Assembly (NCBI GenBank): GCA_024644865.1
Contig: JAHEGZ010000008.1
Location: 1-64,000, forward strand
Length of the DNA: 64,000 nucleotides
Reading direction: 5' to 3'
DNA from: Aurantimicrobium sp.
GTDB lineage: Bacteria; Actinomycetota; Actinomycetes; Actinomycetales; Microbacteriaceae
The notes under the pieces were generated by a model. It worked only from the letters and a program-made list of their open reading frames with translations, did no database searches and had not been told where the DNA came from. Below are positions 15,192 through 50,325 of this stretch, piece by piece. The translations under genes and the position numbers were made by a program. How positions within the stretch are numbered: position 1 is the first letter of the stretch; each line of letters opens with the position of its first letter.

Positions 15192-15338
15192 TCGCCGGGG
15201 GCGGCTGTCAGAACGCCCGTCAAATGCGTGCAAGAATGTATCTAGGCCCATCAAGACCTTCCTCAGGACTTGACATGGGTCCTCATTGTGGGCGCGGTAC
15301 CGTTTTGGTATCCGTTGAGCTTCAAAGTTTGGATGTCA

Positions 15339-17078
15339 ATGGCTCTGTTTGGTCGTCGTAAAAAGGGCGAGGAAGCCCCCGTTGTCGCAGCTGCCCCCGC
15401 GGCGCCAGCAAAGGCCTCTGCATCGAAGACTCCGGTAGCCAAGACTCCGGCTGCCAAGACTCCGGCTGCCAAGACTCCGGCTGCCAAGACTCCGGCTGCC
15501 AAGACTCCGGCTGCCAAGTCGGCAACAGCTAAGAGTCCCGTTGCGAAAGCCGCACCGGCCGCAAAGTCGGCAGCCCCCAAGGCTCCAGTCAAGTCAGCCG
15601 CGAAGGCCCCCGCGAAGTCTGCTGCTCCTAAGGCTCCCGCTGCTGCCAAGACTTCGGTGGCTGCCAAGACTGCCCCGGCCGCGAAGGCTCCCGCTGCCGC
15701 GAAGGCTCCGGCCGCGAAGGCTCCGGCCGCCAAGACTCCGGCCGCCAAGACTCCGGCCGCCAAGACTCCGGCCGCCAAGACTCCGGCCGCGAAAGCTACT
15801 CCAGCCAAGGCGAAGAAATCGGTTGCAGACGCGAACGTCGCGACTGAAGTAGTTCCCCCGAAGACGCCTGCAGCGAAGCGCGGTCGTCCGGCTAAGGCCA
15901 AAGCAGTGGCTGAAGACGATGTTGAGATCGACGAGGAGGACCTTGCTGTCGACCTCGTCGATGACGACGCCGAAGAAGTTGACGTTGTTGACGTCGTTGC
16001 TGAGGTTGTTGCCGATGTCGAGACTGAAGAGGTTGAGCTCGACGAAGACGAAGAGTCGAAGCCGAAGTCGACCATCGATGCGGATGAGCCACTTCCCACT
16101 GGGGCAATTGTCATCTCAAACGCGGACGACGACGACGACATTCCTGTCATCTCGACAGCAATTACGGGCGCAACCGCCGACCCGGTCAAGGACTACCTCA
16201 AGCAAATCGGTAAGGTTCCTCTGCTCAATGCGGTCGAAGAGGTCGACCTTGCTCTGCGCATCGAGGCGGGGCTTTTCGCTGAAGACAAACTTGCGAGTAA
16301 CCCGAAGATTGACAAGCAGCTCAAACGAGAGCTGATGTGGGTTGCTAAAGACGGTCAGCGCGCCAAGAGTCACCTGTTGGGGGCTAACCTCCGACTCGTC
16401 GTCTCGTTGGCAAAGCGCTACACCGGTCGCGGAATGCAGTTCCTCGACCTCATTCAAGAGGGAAACCTTGGTCTGATTCGTGCCGTCGAGAAGTTCGACT
16501 ACACCAAGGGGTTCAAGTTCTCGACTTACGCCACGTGGTGGATTCGTCAGGCCATCACGCGTGCGATGGCTGATCAGGCGCGTACGATTCGTATCCCCGT
16601 TCACATGGTCGAGGTCATTAACAAGCTCGCTCGAGTGCAGCGTCAGATGCTTCAAGACCTCGGGCGCGAACCAACGCCCGAAGAACTCTCGCGCGAACTC
16701 GACATGACGCCGGAGAAGGTCGTCGAGGTTCAGAAGTATGGTCGCGAGCCCATCTCGCTCCACACCCCGCTTGGTGAAGATGGCGACAGCGAGTTCGGCG
16801 ATCTGATTGAGGACACCGAGGCCGTCGTTCCTGCCGACGCCGTAGGATTCACCATGCTTCAAAAGCAGCTCGAGTCGTTGCTCGATTCGCTATCCGAGCG
16901 AGAGGCCGGGGTCATTCGCATGCGTTTTGGTCTCGGTGATGGCATTCCCAAGACACTCGACCAGATCGGTGACACTTTTGGGGTGACTCGCGAGCGCATC
17001 CGCCAGATTGAATCGAAGACGATGGCCAAGCTGCGCCACCCGTCACGTTCGCAGTCGCTGCGCGACTACCTCGAGTAA
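15339..17078 (+). CDS. sigA: Principal RNA polymerase sigma factor (SigA/RpoD/HrdB)
   Basis: Housekeeping sigma factor. After a long N-terminal extension (about residues 1-250) made of Ala/Lys/Pro/Thr repeats and then an acidic stretch, the conserved core starts at [17 protein letters not shown] (region 1.2), continues with region 2 ([37 protein letters not shown]), region 3 ([18 protein letters not shown]) and region 4 ([20 protein letters not shown]), and ends in SLRDYLE. All elements needed for -10 and -35 recognition are present. The ATG at 15339 ([14 protein letters not shown]) was chosen because GGA lies 5 nt upstream; an ATG two codons earlier is also possible. The N-terminal extension holds two 15-bp tandem arrays. 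murT follows after 4 nt. Confidence 0.95.
15426..15515 (+). repeat. Six-unit 15-bp tandem array in sigA (first)
   Basis: Six head-to-tail copies of AAGACTCCGGCTGCC, the first copy differing at two bases. Each unit encodes Lys-Thr-Pro-Ala-Ala (the first Lys-Thr-Pro-Val-Ala). In frame with sigA. Confidence 0.92.
15702..15791 (+). repeat. Six-unit 15-bp tandem array in sigA (second)
   Basis: Six copies of AAG(A/G)CTCCGGCCGC(C/G), encoding Lys-(Thr/Ala)-Pro-Ala-Ala. It uses the alanine codon GCC where the first array uses GCT, so the two arrays probably expanded separately rather than by one copying the other. Confidence 0.9.
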
Positions 17079-17082
17079 ACCG

Positions 17083-18342
17083 ATGCTTCGGTACGCGCCC
17101 GTTGTGGCCATCGGACGTCTCGTTCGTTGGGTCGCTCGCAAGCGCAAGCCCGGTGGGGGAGCCGCCATCCCCGGCGTTGTCGTCAATAAGCTCGCACCCG
17201 GCTTCCTCGGCAACACACTCAACTCGTTCCCCCAAGGACTCGTCGTTGTCACGGGTACCGCAGGTAAGTCGACAACGACGCGCATGTTGGCCGCTGTAGT
17301 TTCTGCACACGGTCGACGGGTCTTCACGAATCCTTCGACGGCAAACATTGCACAGGGGTTAACTTCGGCGATTCTGGCGCAGTCGAGTTTCACGGGCCAC
17401 ATCGATTCAGATATCGCCATTCTCGAGATGGATGAGGGTCACGCCGCGAAGTTGTCAGCCGAAGCTGCGCCCCGAGTGAGTATCCTTCTCAACGTTTGTG
17501 TCGACCAGGTTGACCGATTCTTCGATCCACAATTGGTAACAGCGATGCTCAGTCGTGTGGCCCAAAACACTTCGGAGACCATCGTCTACAACGGCGACGA
17601 CGCGAGCGTTGTGGATGCGGTCGCGGGCGTCGCAGCGCAAAAAAACTCATTTGTGATGGGTTCGCATCTTCGTGCCCAAGACATCGATAAAATGGGCTAC
17701 GCCCGAGTCTCGACAGCGGCAACCTCGATGCCTACCGTCACTCTGCAGTCTGCCGAAAAGAAGCTGGCATCTCTCGAGGTCGACGGCCATGAGGTAAGCG
17801 TTTCACTTCCGAGCGCAGGAATCCATTACGGCGTGGACGCGGCTGCGGCCTTGGCTGCCTCCCGATCGATTCTGGGTAGCGACTTTGACGTCGCGTTAGC
17901 GGTGAGTGTTATTTCGGCGCTCGACCCGGTGTTCGGGCGAGGTGAAACCATAACCGTGCGTGGTCAAGAGATCGATTTCGTTCTCATTCAAAACCCCACG
18001 AGTTATCGACTCAATCTCAACAGCATGGCTCCGAACGCCGAGTGCGTCATGATTGCCGTGGGCTCCGATGTACGTGACTATTCGTACCTATGGCCGGTAC
18101 ATATGGATCACCTTGAAAAGGTCGCTATTGCAGCCGGCCCCAAGGCCAAGGAGGTCGCAATTCATGCGCTTTACGGTGGATGTGTTGTGGGACTCGTGGA
18201 GCCTGATCTGAATCTCGCGTTGGAGAAATTTCTCGCACTTCCGACTCCGCTAGACGGCCGAAAGACGCTGGTGTTCAGTGCTGACTCGATGCGGCGAACT
18301 CGTCGCTACTTCGGCTTAGCCGAACAGGAGGCATGGAGTTGA
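17083..18342 (+). CDS. murT: MurT-like Mur ligase subunit (DUF1727), atypical
   Basis: A 419-residue Mur-ligase-fold protein of the MurT group. In the family, MurT binds lipid II and ATP, activates the D-Glu alpha-carboxyl of the stem peptide and joins it to ammonia supplied by GatD. Visible here are the ATP loop GTAGKSTTTR (residues 58-67), NPSTANIAQGLTSAI, the acidic LEMDEGHAAKL and VDQVDRFFD. Odd features: no Cys4 zinc-ribbon, the usual KNPAG-like motif reads QNPTSY, and the C-terminal stretch that normally supplies an Asp to the GatD triad reads DYSYLWP (about 332-338), apparently without that Asp. It lies 4 nt after sigA and overlaps gatD. The fold assignment is firm; canonical amidotransferase activity is doubtful. 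Confidence 0.85.
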   Translation: MLRYAPVVAIGRLVRWVARKRKPGGGAAIPGVVVNKLAPGFLGNTLNSFPQGLVVVTGTAGKSTTTRMLAAVVSAHGRRVFTNPSTANIAQGLTSAILAQSSFTGHIDSDIAILEMDEGHAAKLSAEAAPRVSILLNVCVDQVDRFFDPQLVTAMLSRVAQNTSETIVYNGDDASVVDAVAGVAAQKNSFVMGSHLRAQDIDKMGYARVSTAATSMPTVTLQSAEKKLASLEVDGHEVSVSLPSAGIHYGVDAAAALAASRSILGSDFDVALAVSVISALDPVFGRGETITVRGQEIDFVLIQNPTSYRLNLNSMAPNAECVMIAVGSDVRDYSYLWPVHMDHLEKVAIAAGPKAKEVAIHALYGGCVVGLVEPDLNLALEKFLALPTPLDGRKTLVFSADSMRRTRRYFGLAEQEAWS

Positions 18343-19028
18343 TGATGAGAATTGGAAAGCTCCTTCCTAGCCTCACGAACTCACAAGGCGATGCTGAAAA
18401 TGCGGACGCACTCGTCAAGGTCCTGACCTGGTATGGCGTCGACGCATCCCTTGTGGTGTTCGAGCCTGGTTCTCACCTAGAGTCTTGCAATGTTTACGTT
18501 CTCGGCCATGTGACCGAGAGCGATCATGCCACTGCTCAGGTACACCTCGGCTTGTGGGGCGCAGAACTCGTTGGCTATGTCAGTGCCGGGAGTGTTGTGT
18601 TGGCTGTGGGGTCATCGTTGTCACTGCTCACTGACGTCGGGCTACTCGGGGGAGTCACGGCTGTGCGTTCCGAGCGTTTTGTGGGCGACACTGTGGTTGA
18701 AGCAGAGACAGGGCTTTTGTGGGGCTTCGAGAACTCTGCCCAGACGTACTCGTGCGCATCCGATGAGAGCGCGTGGGGCGCGGTCCTCATCGGCTCTGGC
18801 AATGGTGACGGCACCGAGGGAGTTCGTCGTCGTATCGCTGATGGGCTGGTCTTGGGAACTCACCTGCACGGGCCCGTGCTGGTTCGCAACGAAGAAATCA
18901 TGGATGAGGTCATTCGACACATCACCAAATCCGATAAAACTCGAGTCATCGCACCCGAAGCCCTGCGTGCTCGTGAACTCGCGCGAGAAAATAGGGCCGA
19001 AAGGATCGCCCAGCTCAGGAAGTCTTAG
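18342..19028 (+). CDS. gatD: GatD-like amidotransferase subunit lacking the catalytic cysteine
   Basis: A 228-residue class-I glutamine-amidotransferase-like protein, partner of MurT. In characterised GatD the nucleophile elbow reads about ICGGYQ; here the aligned stretch LAVGSSLSLL (about 87-96) has Gly90 instead of Cys. The IGGGSDREQ motif is degraded to VLGHVTESDH. The C-terminal GTHLHGPVLVRN keeps the catalytic-type histidine (about 176), and WGFEN is kept, so membership of the family is clear. Glutamine hydrolysis is not expected. The ATG at 18342 overlaps the murT TGA by one base and has AGGAGG 10 nt upstream; an earlier ATG at 18333 lies too close to that site. The gene ends on a TTAG shared with the convergent DUF7455 gene. 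Confidence 0.85.
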   Translation: MMRIGKLLPSLTNSQGDAENADALVKVLTWYGVDASLVVFEPGSHLESCNVYVLGHVTESDHATAQVHLGLWGAELVGYVSAGSVVLAVGSSLSLLTDVGLLGGVTAVRSERFVGDTVVEAETGLLWGFENSAQTYSCASDESAWGAVLIGSGNGDGTEGVRRRIADGLVLGTHLHGPVLVRNEEIMDEVIRHITKSDKTRVIAPEALRARELARENRAERIAQLRKS

Positions 19029-19435: not shown

Positions 19436-21514
19436 GTGTCTACGGAATATTCAGCTCGGCACCTATCTGTGCTCGAGGGGCTCGAGGCTGTTCGTAAACG
19501 TCCAGGTATGTACATCGGTACGACCGACTCCCGCGGACTCATGCACTGCCTCTGGGAAATCATTGACAACTCCGTCGATGAGGCCCTTGCTGGTCACGGA
19601 AACACCATCGACATCCGCCTTCACAAAGACGGCTCCGTGGAGGTTCGCGACAAGGCACGAGGTATTCCTGTCGACATTGAACCCAAGACTGGGCTCTCTG
19701 GTGTTGAAGTGGTCTTCACAAAACTCCACGCAGGTGGAAAGTTCGGTTCAGGTTCCTACGCCGCGTCCGGCGGTCTTCACGGCGTTGGCGCCTCGGTTGT
19801 CAACGCCCTTTCGGAACGACTCGATGTCGAAGTTGATCGTGACGGCAAGACCTACTCAATGTCGTTTCACCGCGGTGAGCCTGGCATCTTCGACGATAGT
19901 AAGGGGATTGCTCCCGGCAACCCCTTCACTCCTTTTGACGACCACTCGGAGCTGCGCGTAACAGGCAAAGTTGCGAAGGGTGTTTCGGGAACACGTGTTC
20001 GCTACTGGGCTGACCGTCAGGTTTTCACGCCCGGGGCCGAGTTCCAGTTTGAAGACTTGGTATCTAGAGCTCGTCAAACCGCATTCTTGGTGCCTGGACT
20101 TCACGTTCGCATTGAAGATGAGCGGGCCGCCGAGCCCATCTCGACCGAGTTCTCCTACTCTGGTGGCATCAGCGAATTCGTCGATTTTCTGGCGTCCGAC
20201 TCGCCGCTGACAGCAACGTGGCGTTTGACCGGAGATGGAACATTCACAGAAAACGTTCCCGTGCTTTCCGACGGCGGCGATATGGAGATGAAAGAGGTCG
20301 AGCGCAGTTGTGCGGTCGATGTCGCTCTTCGCTGGGGAACAGGCTACGACACCGTGGTTCACTCGTTCGTCAACATCATTTCCACTCCCAAGGGGGGAAC
20401 CCACCTCCTCGGCTTCGAACAATCGCTGCTCAAGGTGATGCGCACCCAGGTTGAGGCCAACTCGCGCAAGCTCAAGGCCGGCAACGACAAGCTCGAAAAA
20501 GATGACGTGCTCGCCGGTCTCACGGCCGTTGTGACGGTTCGATTTGCCGAGCCTCAATTCGAGGGACAAACCAAAGAGGTTCTCGGTACCCCAGCCGTTC
20601 GTCAAATCGTTGCCAATGTTGTTTCAAAGGCACTGACTAGTCGATTGACGTCAACAAAGCGAGATGACAAGGCACAATCGACTCTCCTTCTCGAGAAGGT
20701 CGTCAGCGAGATGAAGAGTCGAATATCGGCTCGAACCATGAAAGAGACGCAGCGGCGCAAGAACGCGCTTGAAACATCTTCGCTTCCCGCAAAGCTGGTC
20801 GACTGTCGGAGCAACGATGTAGCCGAGTCTGAGCTATTCATCGTTGAGGGCGACTCTGCACTGGGAACCGCCAAGCTGGCCCGACGCAGTGAGTTCCAAG
20901 CTCTCCTTCCTATTCGCGGCAAGATTCTGAACGTTCAGAAAGCGTCGGTCAGTGACATGTTGCACAACGCAGAGTGCGCGTCGATCATTCAAGTCATCGG
21001 AGCTGGATCGGGTCGCACTTTCGACCTCGAAGCCGCTCGCTACGGAAAAGTCATTCTTATGTCTGATGCCGATGTTGACGGTGCACACATTCGAACCCTG
21101 TTGCTCACGCTGTTCTTTAGGTACATGCGCCCGCTGGTCGAAGCTGGCCGCGTCTTCGCTGCGGTGCCTCCACTTCATCGTGTCGTCGTTATGAACCCAG
21201 GATCGAAGCCGAACGAGACCATCTACACCTACAGCGAGGCCGAACTGCAGACACTGTTAGCCACGCTGGCGAAGCAGGGCAAGCGCTATCAAGAACCGAT
21301 TCAGCGTTACAAGGGTCTGGGCGAAATGGATGCTGACCAACTCGCTCTGACGACGATGGATCGCGAGCACCGTTCGTTGCGTCGGGTTCGCATCGAAGAC
21401 GCAGCCATGGCTGACACCGTTTTCGAACTTCTGATGGGCAACGAGGTCGCACCCCGTCGCGACTTCATCATCTCCGGGTCAAGCCGAATGTCTCGCGACC
21501 GTATCGACGTTTAG
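19436..21514 (+). CDS. parE: DNA topoisomerase IV subunit B
   Basis: ATPase subunit of a type IIA topoisomerase. The N-terminal GHKL ATPase motifs are present (EIIDNSVDEALAG, RGIPVDIEP, GLHGVGASVVNAL), followed by the TOPRIM domain (IVEGDSALGTAKLAR, DADVDGAHIRTLLL) and the C-terminal QRYKGLGEMD. The early sequence TDSRGLMHCLWEI and the 692-residue length fit ParE rather than GyrB. GGGAG lies just before the GTG. It is convergent with parC; the two stop codons overlap within TTAG, an arrangement unlike the usual parEC operon. Confidence 0.92.
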   Translation: MSTEYSARHLSVLEGLEAVRKRPGMYIGTTDSRGLMHCLWEIIDNSVDEALAGHGNTIDIRLHKDGSVEVRDKARGIPVDIEPKTGLSGVEVVFTKLHAGGKFGSGSYAASGGLHGVGASVVNALSERLDVEVDRDGKTYSMSFHRGEPGIFDDSKGIAPGNPFTPFDDHSELRVTGKVAKGVSGTRVRYWADRQVFTPGAEFQFEDLVSRARQTAFLVPGLHVRIEDERAAEPISTEFSYSGGISEFVDFLASDSPLTATWRLTGDGTFTENVPVLSDGGDMEMKEVERSCAVDVALRWGTGYDTVVHSFVNIISTPKGGTHLLGFEQSLLKVMRTQVEANSRKLKAGNDKLEKDDVLAGLTAVVTVRFAEPQFEGQTKEVLGTPAVRQIVANVVSKALTSRLTSTKRDDKAQSTLLLEKVVSEMKSRISARTMKETQRRKNALETSSLPAKLVDCRSNDVAESELFIVEGDSALGTAKLARRSEFQALLPIRGKILNVQKASVSDMLHNAECASIIQVIGAGSGRTFDLEAARYGKVILMSDADVDGAHIRTLLLTLFFRYMRPLVEAGRVFAAVPPLHRVVVMNPGSKPNETIYTYSEAELQTLLATLAKQGKRYQEPIQRYKGLGEMDADQLALTTMDREHRSLRRVRIEDAAMADTVFELLMGNEVAPRRDFIISGSSRMSRDRIDV

Positions 21515-48824: not shown

Positions 48825-49721
48825 ATGTCAGCACAGCAGAGTGAATTCGGCGGAGACCGTGTCAAGCGTGGCCTTGCAGAAATGCTCAAGGGCGGCGTCA
48901 TCATGGACGTCGTTACCGCCGAACAGGCAAAAATCGCCGAGGATGCCGGAGCTGTAGCTGTGATGGCACTCGAGCGCGTTCCCGCTGACATCCGAGCTCA
49001 GGGTGGCGTTGCTCGCATGAGTGACCCGGATCTCATTCAGCAGATCATTGACACCGTATCGATCCCTGTCATGGCAAAGGCTCGCATTGGGCACTTCGTC
49101 GAGGCTCAGGTGCTCGAGTACCTCAAGGTTGACTACATCGACGAGTCCGAGGTTCTCAGCCCGGCAGACTACGTCAACCACATCGACAAGTGGAAGTTCA
49201 CTATTCCCTTTGTTTGCGGTGCCACAAACCTCGGTGAGGCGCTTCGCCGCATCAACGAGGGTGCAGCCATGATTCGATCCAAGGGCGAGGCCGGCACGGG
49301 TGACGTTTCTGAAGCGACCAAGCACATCCGCAAGATCAACTCAGAAATTCGTGCACTTTCGGCCATGTCGGAAGACGAGCTTTACGTAGCAGCAAAAGAG
49401 CACCAGGCTCCGTTCGCTCTCATCAAAGAGGTCGCTGCTACTGGCAAACTGCCGGTTGTTCTCTTTACCGCTGGTGGCGTCGCTACTCCCGCCGATGCAG
49501 CAATGATGATGCAGCTGGGTGCTGACGGTGTGTTCGTTGGCTCGGGAATCTTCAAGTCGGGTAACCCCGAGGCGCGCGCCAAGGCAATCGTGAAGGCTGT
49601 TGCTCAGTACACCGACCCCGCGGTCATCACTGAGGCTTCCCGAGGACTGGGTGAGGCCATGGTAGGAATCAACGTCTCCGACCTTCCTGCTCCCCATCGC
49701 CTTGCCGAGCGTGGCTGGTAA
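48825..49721 (+). CDS. pdxS: Pyridoxal 5'-phosphate synthase lyase subunit
   Basis: Makes pyridoxal phosphate from ribose 5-phosphate, glyceraldehyde 3-phosphate and ammonia supplied by Pdx[21 protein letters not shown], the lysine-bearing [28 protein letters not shown] and [17 protein letters not shown] are typical. The ATG at 48825 ([10 protein letters not shown]) was preferred with a GAG-rich ribosome site upstream; a GTG at 48810 is an alternative. It ends inside the pdxT start region. Confidence 0.94.
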
Positions 49722-50325
49722 CAGTCCGCGTATCGGGGTTCTTGCGCTTCAAGGGGATGTGCGCGAGCACGTCGAGACGCTAAACGCACTCGGTGTGGTT
49801 CCGAGTGAAGTGCGCACCATTGATCAGCTCGGTCAAGTAGACGCGCTCGTCATTCCTGGAGGCGAGTCAACCGTCATCGACAAACTGACGCGCATGTTTG
49901 GACTGGCTCCCGTCATTTCAGAACGCATCGCTGAAGGAATGCCGGTGCTTGGCACCTGTGCAGGCCTCATCATGCTCGCGAATCACCTTGCCGACGGCAC
50001 CGCGGATCAGCAAACTTTTGGGGGGCTCAACGTCACTGTGCGTCGGAACGCCTTTGGTGCGCAGGTTGACTCCTTCGAAACCGAGCTCTCGATGCCCACT
50101 GTGTCGCAACAGTTAGTAGCCGCAACATTCATCCGTGCACCGGTCATCGAATCACTTGGTGAGGGCGTTCACGTTCTCGCATCGCTGGCAGACGGAACCG
50201 TCGTCGGCGCTCAGCAGGGAAATGTCATTGGCATTTCGTTCCACCCCGAAGTCTCTGGTGAAACAAAGATTCACGAGTACTTCCTCGGTGTCGTTGAGGC
50301 GTTTCTCAGTTCAACTCAAAGATAA
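49711..50325 (+). CDS. pdxT: Pyridoxal 5'-phosphate synthase glutaminase subunit
   Basis: Class-I glutamine amidotransferase that feeds ammonia to PdxS. The nucleophile elbow [12 protein letters not shown], the oxyanion motif [13 protein letters not shown] and the catalytic His/Glu in SFHPEVSGE are complete, in contrast to GatD at 18.3 kb. 204 residues. GTG at 49711 ([17 protein letters not shown]) is preferred over TTG at 49702. It overlaps pdxS by 11 nt. Confidence 0.93.

Follow-up and report, generated by a model that had tools for sequence, protein, structure and literature searches.

The closest described relatives of the gene pair considered here are the MurT/GatD lipid II isoglutaminyl synthases of S. 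aureus, S. pneumoniae and S. pyogenes. In type-B peptidoglycan, a wall type also found outside Actinomycetota in Erysipelothrix and Acetobacterium, cross-links begin at D-Glu and not at the third residue, and glycine is the first bridge residue in both Microbacterium subtypes; to our knowledge, no enzyme for this first branch has been described. The best hits of an open-access literature search included no paper that assigns this step to MurT/GatD or CofE. Passages from the S. aureus work name the D-Glu of lipid II as the target of canonical MurT, state that MurT is able to replace MurE in vitro and attribute 36% of the MurT interface to the C-terminal helix of GatD (PMC6113224); the GatD substitutions C94G and C94S are described there and in a passage of a second source as abolishing activity (PMC6113224, PMC6085368). 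For type-B walls, excerpts describe a bridge from D-Glu to D-Ala in Clavibacter (PMC9603630), a closed genome of 1,430,433 bp and a Dab-containing wall measured as type B2beta in Rhodoluna lacicola (PMC4156110), and type-B walls with Orn or Lys in Microbacterium (PMC11319209), where an excerpt assigns L-Lys to M. enclense and D-Orn to the other members of the M. testaceum clade (PMC10757982). CofE, the F420-0:gamma-glutamyl ligase, adds L-glutamate by an acyl-phosphate mechanism which its authors, in the excerpted text, liken to that of MurD (PMC10861534).

The window, i.e., the whole stretch of 64,000 nucleotides analysed, carries a murT and a gatD homologue behind rpoD (Table 1). The two frames are intact, overlap and lie on the + strand, and four bases separate the rpoD stop from the murT start. 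With the canonical synthases the pair shares the two-gene arrangement, the GatD fold with its C-terminal helix, the Mur ligase ATP site, the GatD histidine and the interface aspartate; it differs from them in lacking the nucleophilic cysteine, in its remodelled RDQLDRxGE and KNP motifs and in scoring far below the NCBIfam cut-offs.

Table 1. Features of the rpoD-murT-gatD region, in positions of the window
Feature	Position	Strand	Remark
rpoD (principal sigma factor, by sequence)	15270..17078	+	slot anchor; start coordinate tentative
murT (class A)	17083..18342	+	419 aa; Mur ligase middle domain and degenerate MurT C-terminal domain
P-loop GTAGKSTTT of MurT, intact	17254..17280	+	residues 58-66
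Gln303 of QNP in MurT (canonical: Lys of KNP)	17989..17991	+	
Asp332 of MurT, retained, equivalent to S. aureus D349	18076..18078	+	
gatD	18333..19028	+	231 aa; GatD fold, nucleophile Cys missing
Gly codon at the GatD nucleophile elbow (Cys in canonical GatD)	18609..18611	+	
His179 of GTHLHGP in GatD, retained	18867..18869	+	
parE-like gene (read from its sequence as topoisomerase IV subunit B)	19436..21514	+	species marker for tree

The sequence-only reading had reported a Gly in place of the GatD nucleophile and a conserved LHGP histidine, and both observations are borne out. The elbow LAVGSSLSLL places Gly at residue 93 of the frame (Gly90 if translation begins at Met, residue 4), where a lipid II isoglutaminyl synthase has its nucleophilic Cys, and the catalytic His is found at residue 179. 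The protein reaches 38.2 bits against the NCBIfam GatD model (curated cut-off 400) and 23.6 against Pfam GATase_3 (cut-off 27). Its predicted structure (pLDDT 94.9) nevertheless has the GatD fold: the best structural matches of the model are GatD proteins, with Z 25.6-26.7, compared with at most 17.4 for other glutaminases, and the C-terminal helix is present at residues 208-230. Among close pairs of relatives, dN/dS lies at 0.055-0.434 for gatD (13 computable of 14 pairs) and at 0.05-0.38 for murT (13 computable pairs); the window gatD's own pair (L005/L006) comprises only 89 codons, with saturated dS. The Cys-less GatD of Microbacteriaceae is under purifying selection in these 13 close pairs and is very probably not a decaying relic. 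Collectively, these data support the view that the glutaminase chemistry is gone and that GatD persists as a selected, folded subunit; the earlier suggestion of a GatD subunit without glutaminase function thus agrees with the missing Cys, the selection in 13 pairs and the fold of the model.

For MurT, the P-loop conforms to GTxGK(S/T)T, and its conservation, like the replacement of KNP by QNP, had been read correctly. The proposed replacement of the triad Asp by Pro was a misreading. In the excerpted S. aureus text, D349 of MurT sits in RDTSWIYD (PMC6113224), a motif that aligns with RDYSYLWP of the window, so that D332 corresponds to D349 and completes the triad; the Pro follows six residues later, aligned with a later residue. 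D332 is invariant across 32 aligned MurTs of Microbacteriaceae. The absence of zinc-ribbon cysteines is real, as no CxxC occurs, but it is not diagnostic, because Cys-bearing canonical pairs of the same order also lack CxxC (members read from families f3, f4, f6, f12 and f17). The only curated cut-off exceeded is that of Pfam Mur_ligase_M (46.3, cut-off 24); MurT_C gives 17.1 (cut-off 25) and the NCBIfam MurT model 80.7 bits (cut-off 800). Among solved structures, those nearest by sequence are MurT/GatD complexes from streptococci and S. aureus. The canonical RDQLDRxGE becomes, e.g., DQIDRFHDSE in class A and DQLNRFHEPDR in class B; class A has QNP in place of KNP, and in both classes the loop preceding the triad Asp is shortened. 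As judged from these alignments, MurT is remodelled at its substrate-handling regions.

The search for a second, canonical pair proposed earlier returned none in the 1.78-Mb genome, whose assembly is 94.8% complete, with the NCBIfam MurT and GatD models; beyond the murT/gatD locus, these models gave a single hit, a weak one to a Mur ligase on a different contig (E 0.001). Relatives of the pair were also sought in viral contigs, and none was confirmed. The frame at 49666-50323, identified as PdxT from its GTCAG motif only, keeps its Cys, as had been noted. The Cys loss in the window is real, but it is not special to this genome, as it is widespread in Microbacteriaceae.

This spread was followed in an even draw of 249 Microbacteriaceae genomes. 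A strong MurT match (E 1.4e-46 or better) was obtained in 177 of them, and a family profile added 24 of the other 72 (6.6e-27 or better), giving 201 genomes with MurT and 48 without; presence is defined by E-values, with GatD read for part of the genomes. The MurTs of the family fall into deep classes A (that of the window), B, C and D, in addition to the canonical type. No elbow Cys occurs in any of 108 readable divergent GatD sequences of the family, whereas all 53 canonical sequences carry it (9/9 within the family and 44/44 from the order's other families). The elbow residue is Gly (41), Ala (5) or Asn (1) in 47 class A sequences; Gly (29), Ala (10), Ser (3), Thr (1) or Asn (1) in 44 of class B; His in 11/11 of class C and Gly in 2/2 of class D, and the remaining four odd GatDs also lack Cys. 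The catalytic His is kept in 47/47 class A and 19/44 class B sequences and in none of C or D. The count comprises 161 sequences, 155 of them distinct, at least eight named loci duplicating a genome of the G series, and it omits cut-off or unpicked frames (8/73 class A, B or odd loci, 15/43 named A, B or C loci and 2/46 loci outside the family). A search at class level matched 139 of 246 genomes, from which 62 loci were read (30 + 32). All eight family loci lack Cys, and 50 of 52 alignable loci outside Microbacteriaceae carry it; of the 54 outside loci, two were dropped (a wrong frame and a fragment), and five belong to genomes already in the order sample. Within the samples read, these sequences support a GatD Cys loss nearly confined to Microbacteriaceae. 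In one genus of a separate actinobacterial family (L460 and L461, family f111), the GatD elbow carries Asp and no Cys.

Canonical, Cys-bearing pairs persist in five genera of the family (g4, g43, g6, g55 and g76; L125-L127, L129-L134), away from rpoD. In the ParE tree, two of these (g55 and g76) fall together with the genus of the window, and their MurT is of the zinc-ribbon type, near those of other families; by sequence, their pairs look as if re-acquired. On the MurT tree, classes A and B form one clade, which neighbours ordinary pairs of the order; classes C and D form another, beside zinc-ribbon MurTs (all trees are quick ones, with SH-aLRT support only). Since A + B and C + D stand in separate clades, parsimony implies at least two losses of the glutaminase. 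Two further observations concern single genomes. G013 (L409), whose 927,303 bp match the genome length of Tropheryma whipplei Twist, has a class-B-like pair that is also Cys-less. G111 (L050), which belongs to the genus of Glaciihabitans dw_435, holds another Cys-less pair in addition to its first; this second pair is more divergent and does not follow rpoD.

The position directly behind rpoD is constant. It is occupied by the pair at 38/38 class A, 27/27 class B and 11/11 class C loci (76/76), at 1/2 class D and at 4/7 odd loci, whereas canonical pairs have no rpoD upstream. Inspected by eye, the gene after rpoD is parE in five of seven canonical-pair genomes, a transposase-like frame in G163 and murE in G138; in nine genomes with neither the pair nor the alternative described below, it is parE in five and a transporter-like gene in three, one being unreadable. 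On these sequences, the lost-glutaminase pairs, of at least two origins, appear mostly to have ended in the same rpoD slot. When named genomes were scanned for an rpoD-end pattern, at least 117 loci were returned, at least 111 of them titled Microbacteriaceae. Among the matches listed (117 rpoD loci), 14 are of class A, 28 of class B, one of class C, 67 CofE-like and seven unclassed; as they were found through the rpoD-end pattern, the 67 CofE-like loci stand behind rpoD by construction. Among these listed matches, class A includes Rathayibacter, Cryobacterium, Amnibacterium and Naasia, and class B includes Curtobacterium, Leifsonia, Herbiconiux, Okibacterium, Subtercola, Frondihabitans and eight Microbacterium; Microbacterium has a CofE-like gene in the slot at 61 of its 71 listed loci. 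Three records titled Stenotrophomonas, Planococcus and Acidobacteria (L156, L208 and L222) show rpoD loci of the Microbacteriaceae type and are probably mislabelled or contaminated.

The alternative occupant is found in the MurT-less genomes, 39 of 48 of which carry a CofE-like gene. Across the 249 genomes, an unselected draw, 198 have MurT only, 39 the CofE-like gene only, three both and nine neither (Fisher p 2.8e-33, uncorrected for kinship). The CofE-like gene lies directly behind rpoD in 13 of the 15 CofE-only genomes checked among these 39, namely ten loci (L272-L281), G068 and, by coordinates, G033 and G054; in G018 it lies about 1.4 kb behind rpoD, and in G040 a contig end intervenes. 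Kinship was addressed with a ParE tree of 75 rows (70 from the family), built from 78 genomes hand-chosen to cover all states, with G124, G251 and G266 left out for incomplete ParE matches. In this chosen set, supported branches yield 14 independent pairs of which one member has the CofE-like gene and the other lacks it; MurT presence is opposite in 13-14 of the 14 and the same in none (p 1.2e-4 to 2.4e-4). The exchange of the pair for a gene of CofE fold is thus repeated and nearly exclusive. Class D (L146, L147 and L329) is the sole place seen where both solutions are neighbours: a divergent CofE-like gene adjoins murT and gatD, behind rpoD in G112 and elsewhere in G049. In G134 both enzymes occur, on different contigs.

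The CofE-like slot protein (230 aa) scores 48.7 bits against Pfam F420_ligase (PF01996; cut-off 25), and its model (pLDDT 84.8) gives five significant Foldseek matches, all CofE or a homologue (best E 4.5e-10, 2phn); the absence of other folds from the Foldseek/VIA lists is not counted as evidence. CofE itself is unrelated to MurT and forms an amide bond via an acyl phosphate. The slot alternative shares its fold but falls well below the equivalog cut-off for the F420 enzyme (26.9 bits, cut-off 180.65). F420 synthesis was rejected as the general role of the slot gene, since CofD is present in 21 of the 42 bearer genomes and missing from the other 21. The slot ligase of CofE type is probably GTP-dependent. 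Outside the family, CofE-like relatives occur in other classes (phylum sample, 396 genomes). Of ten such contexts inspected by eye, L319 belongs to a division-gene cluster containing ftsZ, sepF and divIVA and adjoins an asnB-like gene, L326 adjoins a murJ-like gene, L325 lies three genes from another murJ-like gene, and in L328 (G752) a CofE-like domain and an AsnB-like amidotransferase share one frame of 894 aa; the remaining six have no evident connection to the wall. L316 and L317 (G648 and G427) have frames similarly long to that of L328. In a strain of M. enclense (L205), the gene after the CofE-like one is murJ-like.

Taking these observations together, it is fairly probable that the pair is a peptidoglycan-precursor ligase derived from MurT/GatD that does without glutamine and joins an amine directly to a carboxylate of the stem peptide, a CofE-type ligase doing the same job elsewhere. 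CofE has no glutaminase, and the repeated exchange speaks for direct use of an amine by the dead-GatD pair as well. In such a mechanism, MurT would use ATP to activate a carboxylate of the lipid-linked stem peptide, most likely the D-Glu alpha-carboxyl, which is the canonical MurT site, and would join to it a free amine, for which the first residue of the type-B cross-bridge is the most likely candidate. GatD may serve the C-terminal domain of MurT as a structural or closing subunit, and in many relatives a CofE-type ligase would perform the same step from the same rpoD slot. The chemistry proposed, with ATP, an acyl phosphate and an amino acid acting as nucleophile, is that of the MurD/MurE amino-acid ligases. 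By analogy with CofE, an amino-acid ligase, the exchange makes the pair most likely an amino-acid, and less likely an ammonia, ligase for the type-B D-Glu alpha-carboxyl. About evenly poised, in our estimation, is the broader statement that the rpoD slot encodes the enzyme placing the first bridge residue on the D-Glu alpha-carboxyl, so making type-B peptidoglycan, and that it was filled in at least three ways, by two inactivations of the glutaminase and one recruitment of CofE.

The connection to wall type had been anticipated in two forms, each of which holds in part. Cys loss does follow the type-B wall in being nearly confined to Microbacteriaceae and in R. lacicola (G009, L040), which has a Cys-less class A pair and, in the excerpt cited above, a B2beta wall (PMC4156110). 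In Microbacterium, excerpted descriptions give type B (PMC11319209) and 61 of 71 listed loci are CofE-like. The proposal of a type-B amino-acid ligase is favoured over an amidase by the CofE exchange, but the pair is not the family's one type-B ligase, because Microbacterium walls are of type B with a CofE-like gene at most listed loci. Nine of the 249 genomes have neither enzyme. These nine genomes, the co-occurrence in class D and G134, the distance of the CofE-like gene from rpoD in G018, and the canonical pairs kept by five genera all speak against the preferred reading. Whether the class of slot enzyme goes with the diamino acid, Lys or Orn, was looked at in one case, and no link was seen: the CofE-like proteins of an M. 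enclense and an M. testaceum strain are 95% identical, whereas the excerpt gives L-Lys for M. enclense and D-Orn for the other members of the clade (PMC10757982). This is what an enzyme for one common first residue would give, but it equally weakens a simple wall-type code.

The evidence on retained function bears on three other explanations. If the pair still made D-isoglutamine, now from free ammonia and with GatD as a structural relic, the intact MurT ATP site and Asp and the GatD His of all 47 class A sequences would be accounted for, and the CofE-like genes beside or fused with AsnB-like amidotransferases in other classes could likewise point to ammonia. Such a synthase nonetheless appears unlikely in view of the Clavibacter bridge, described in the available passage as attached to D-Glu (PMC9603630), the two separate losses combined with exchange for an amino-acid-ligase family, and the remodelling of RDQLDRxGE in A and B and of KNP in A. 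Simple decay, in which bridges occupy the D-Glu carboxyl and the useless amidase erodes, is highly improbable: it would agree with the absence of the pair from 48 genomes and with the variable elbow and His of class B, but dN/dS is well under 1 in 13 pairs, 201 of 249 genomes keep the pair, its slot is fixed, and another ligase replaces it where it is absent.

It is also conceivable, although quite unlikely, that the slot enzymes act on a different carboxylate or on another wall or lipid substrate, the link to type B being coincidental. Their substrate is deduced indirectly, the case compared in the excerpted wall descriptions shows no match between enzyme class and diamino acid, and nine genomes have neither enzyme, all of which would suit such a role. 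It is countered by the action of canonical MurT on the D-Glu of lipid II, as stated in the S. aureus passage (PMC6113224), by the CofE-like genes seen by eye beside murJ-like or ftsZ-cluster genes, and by the near-restriction of Cys loss to a type-B family.

The direct ligation of an amine to the stem peptide thus remains the preferred reading, and the pair is a good candidate for the enzyme behind the unusual cell-wall cross-links of Microbacteriaceae. If this is true, it would show clearly how an amidotransferase can become an amino-acid ligase through loss of its ammonia source, and a wall chemistry characteristic of an entire bacterial family would gain its genes.
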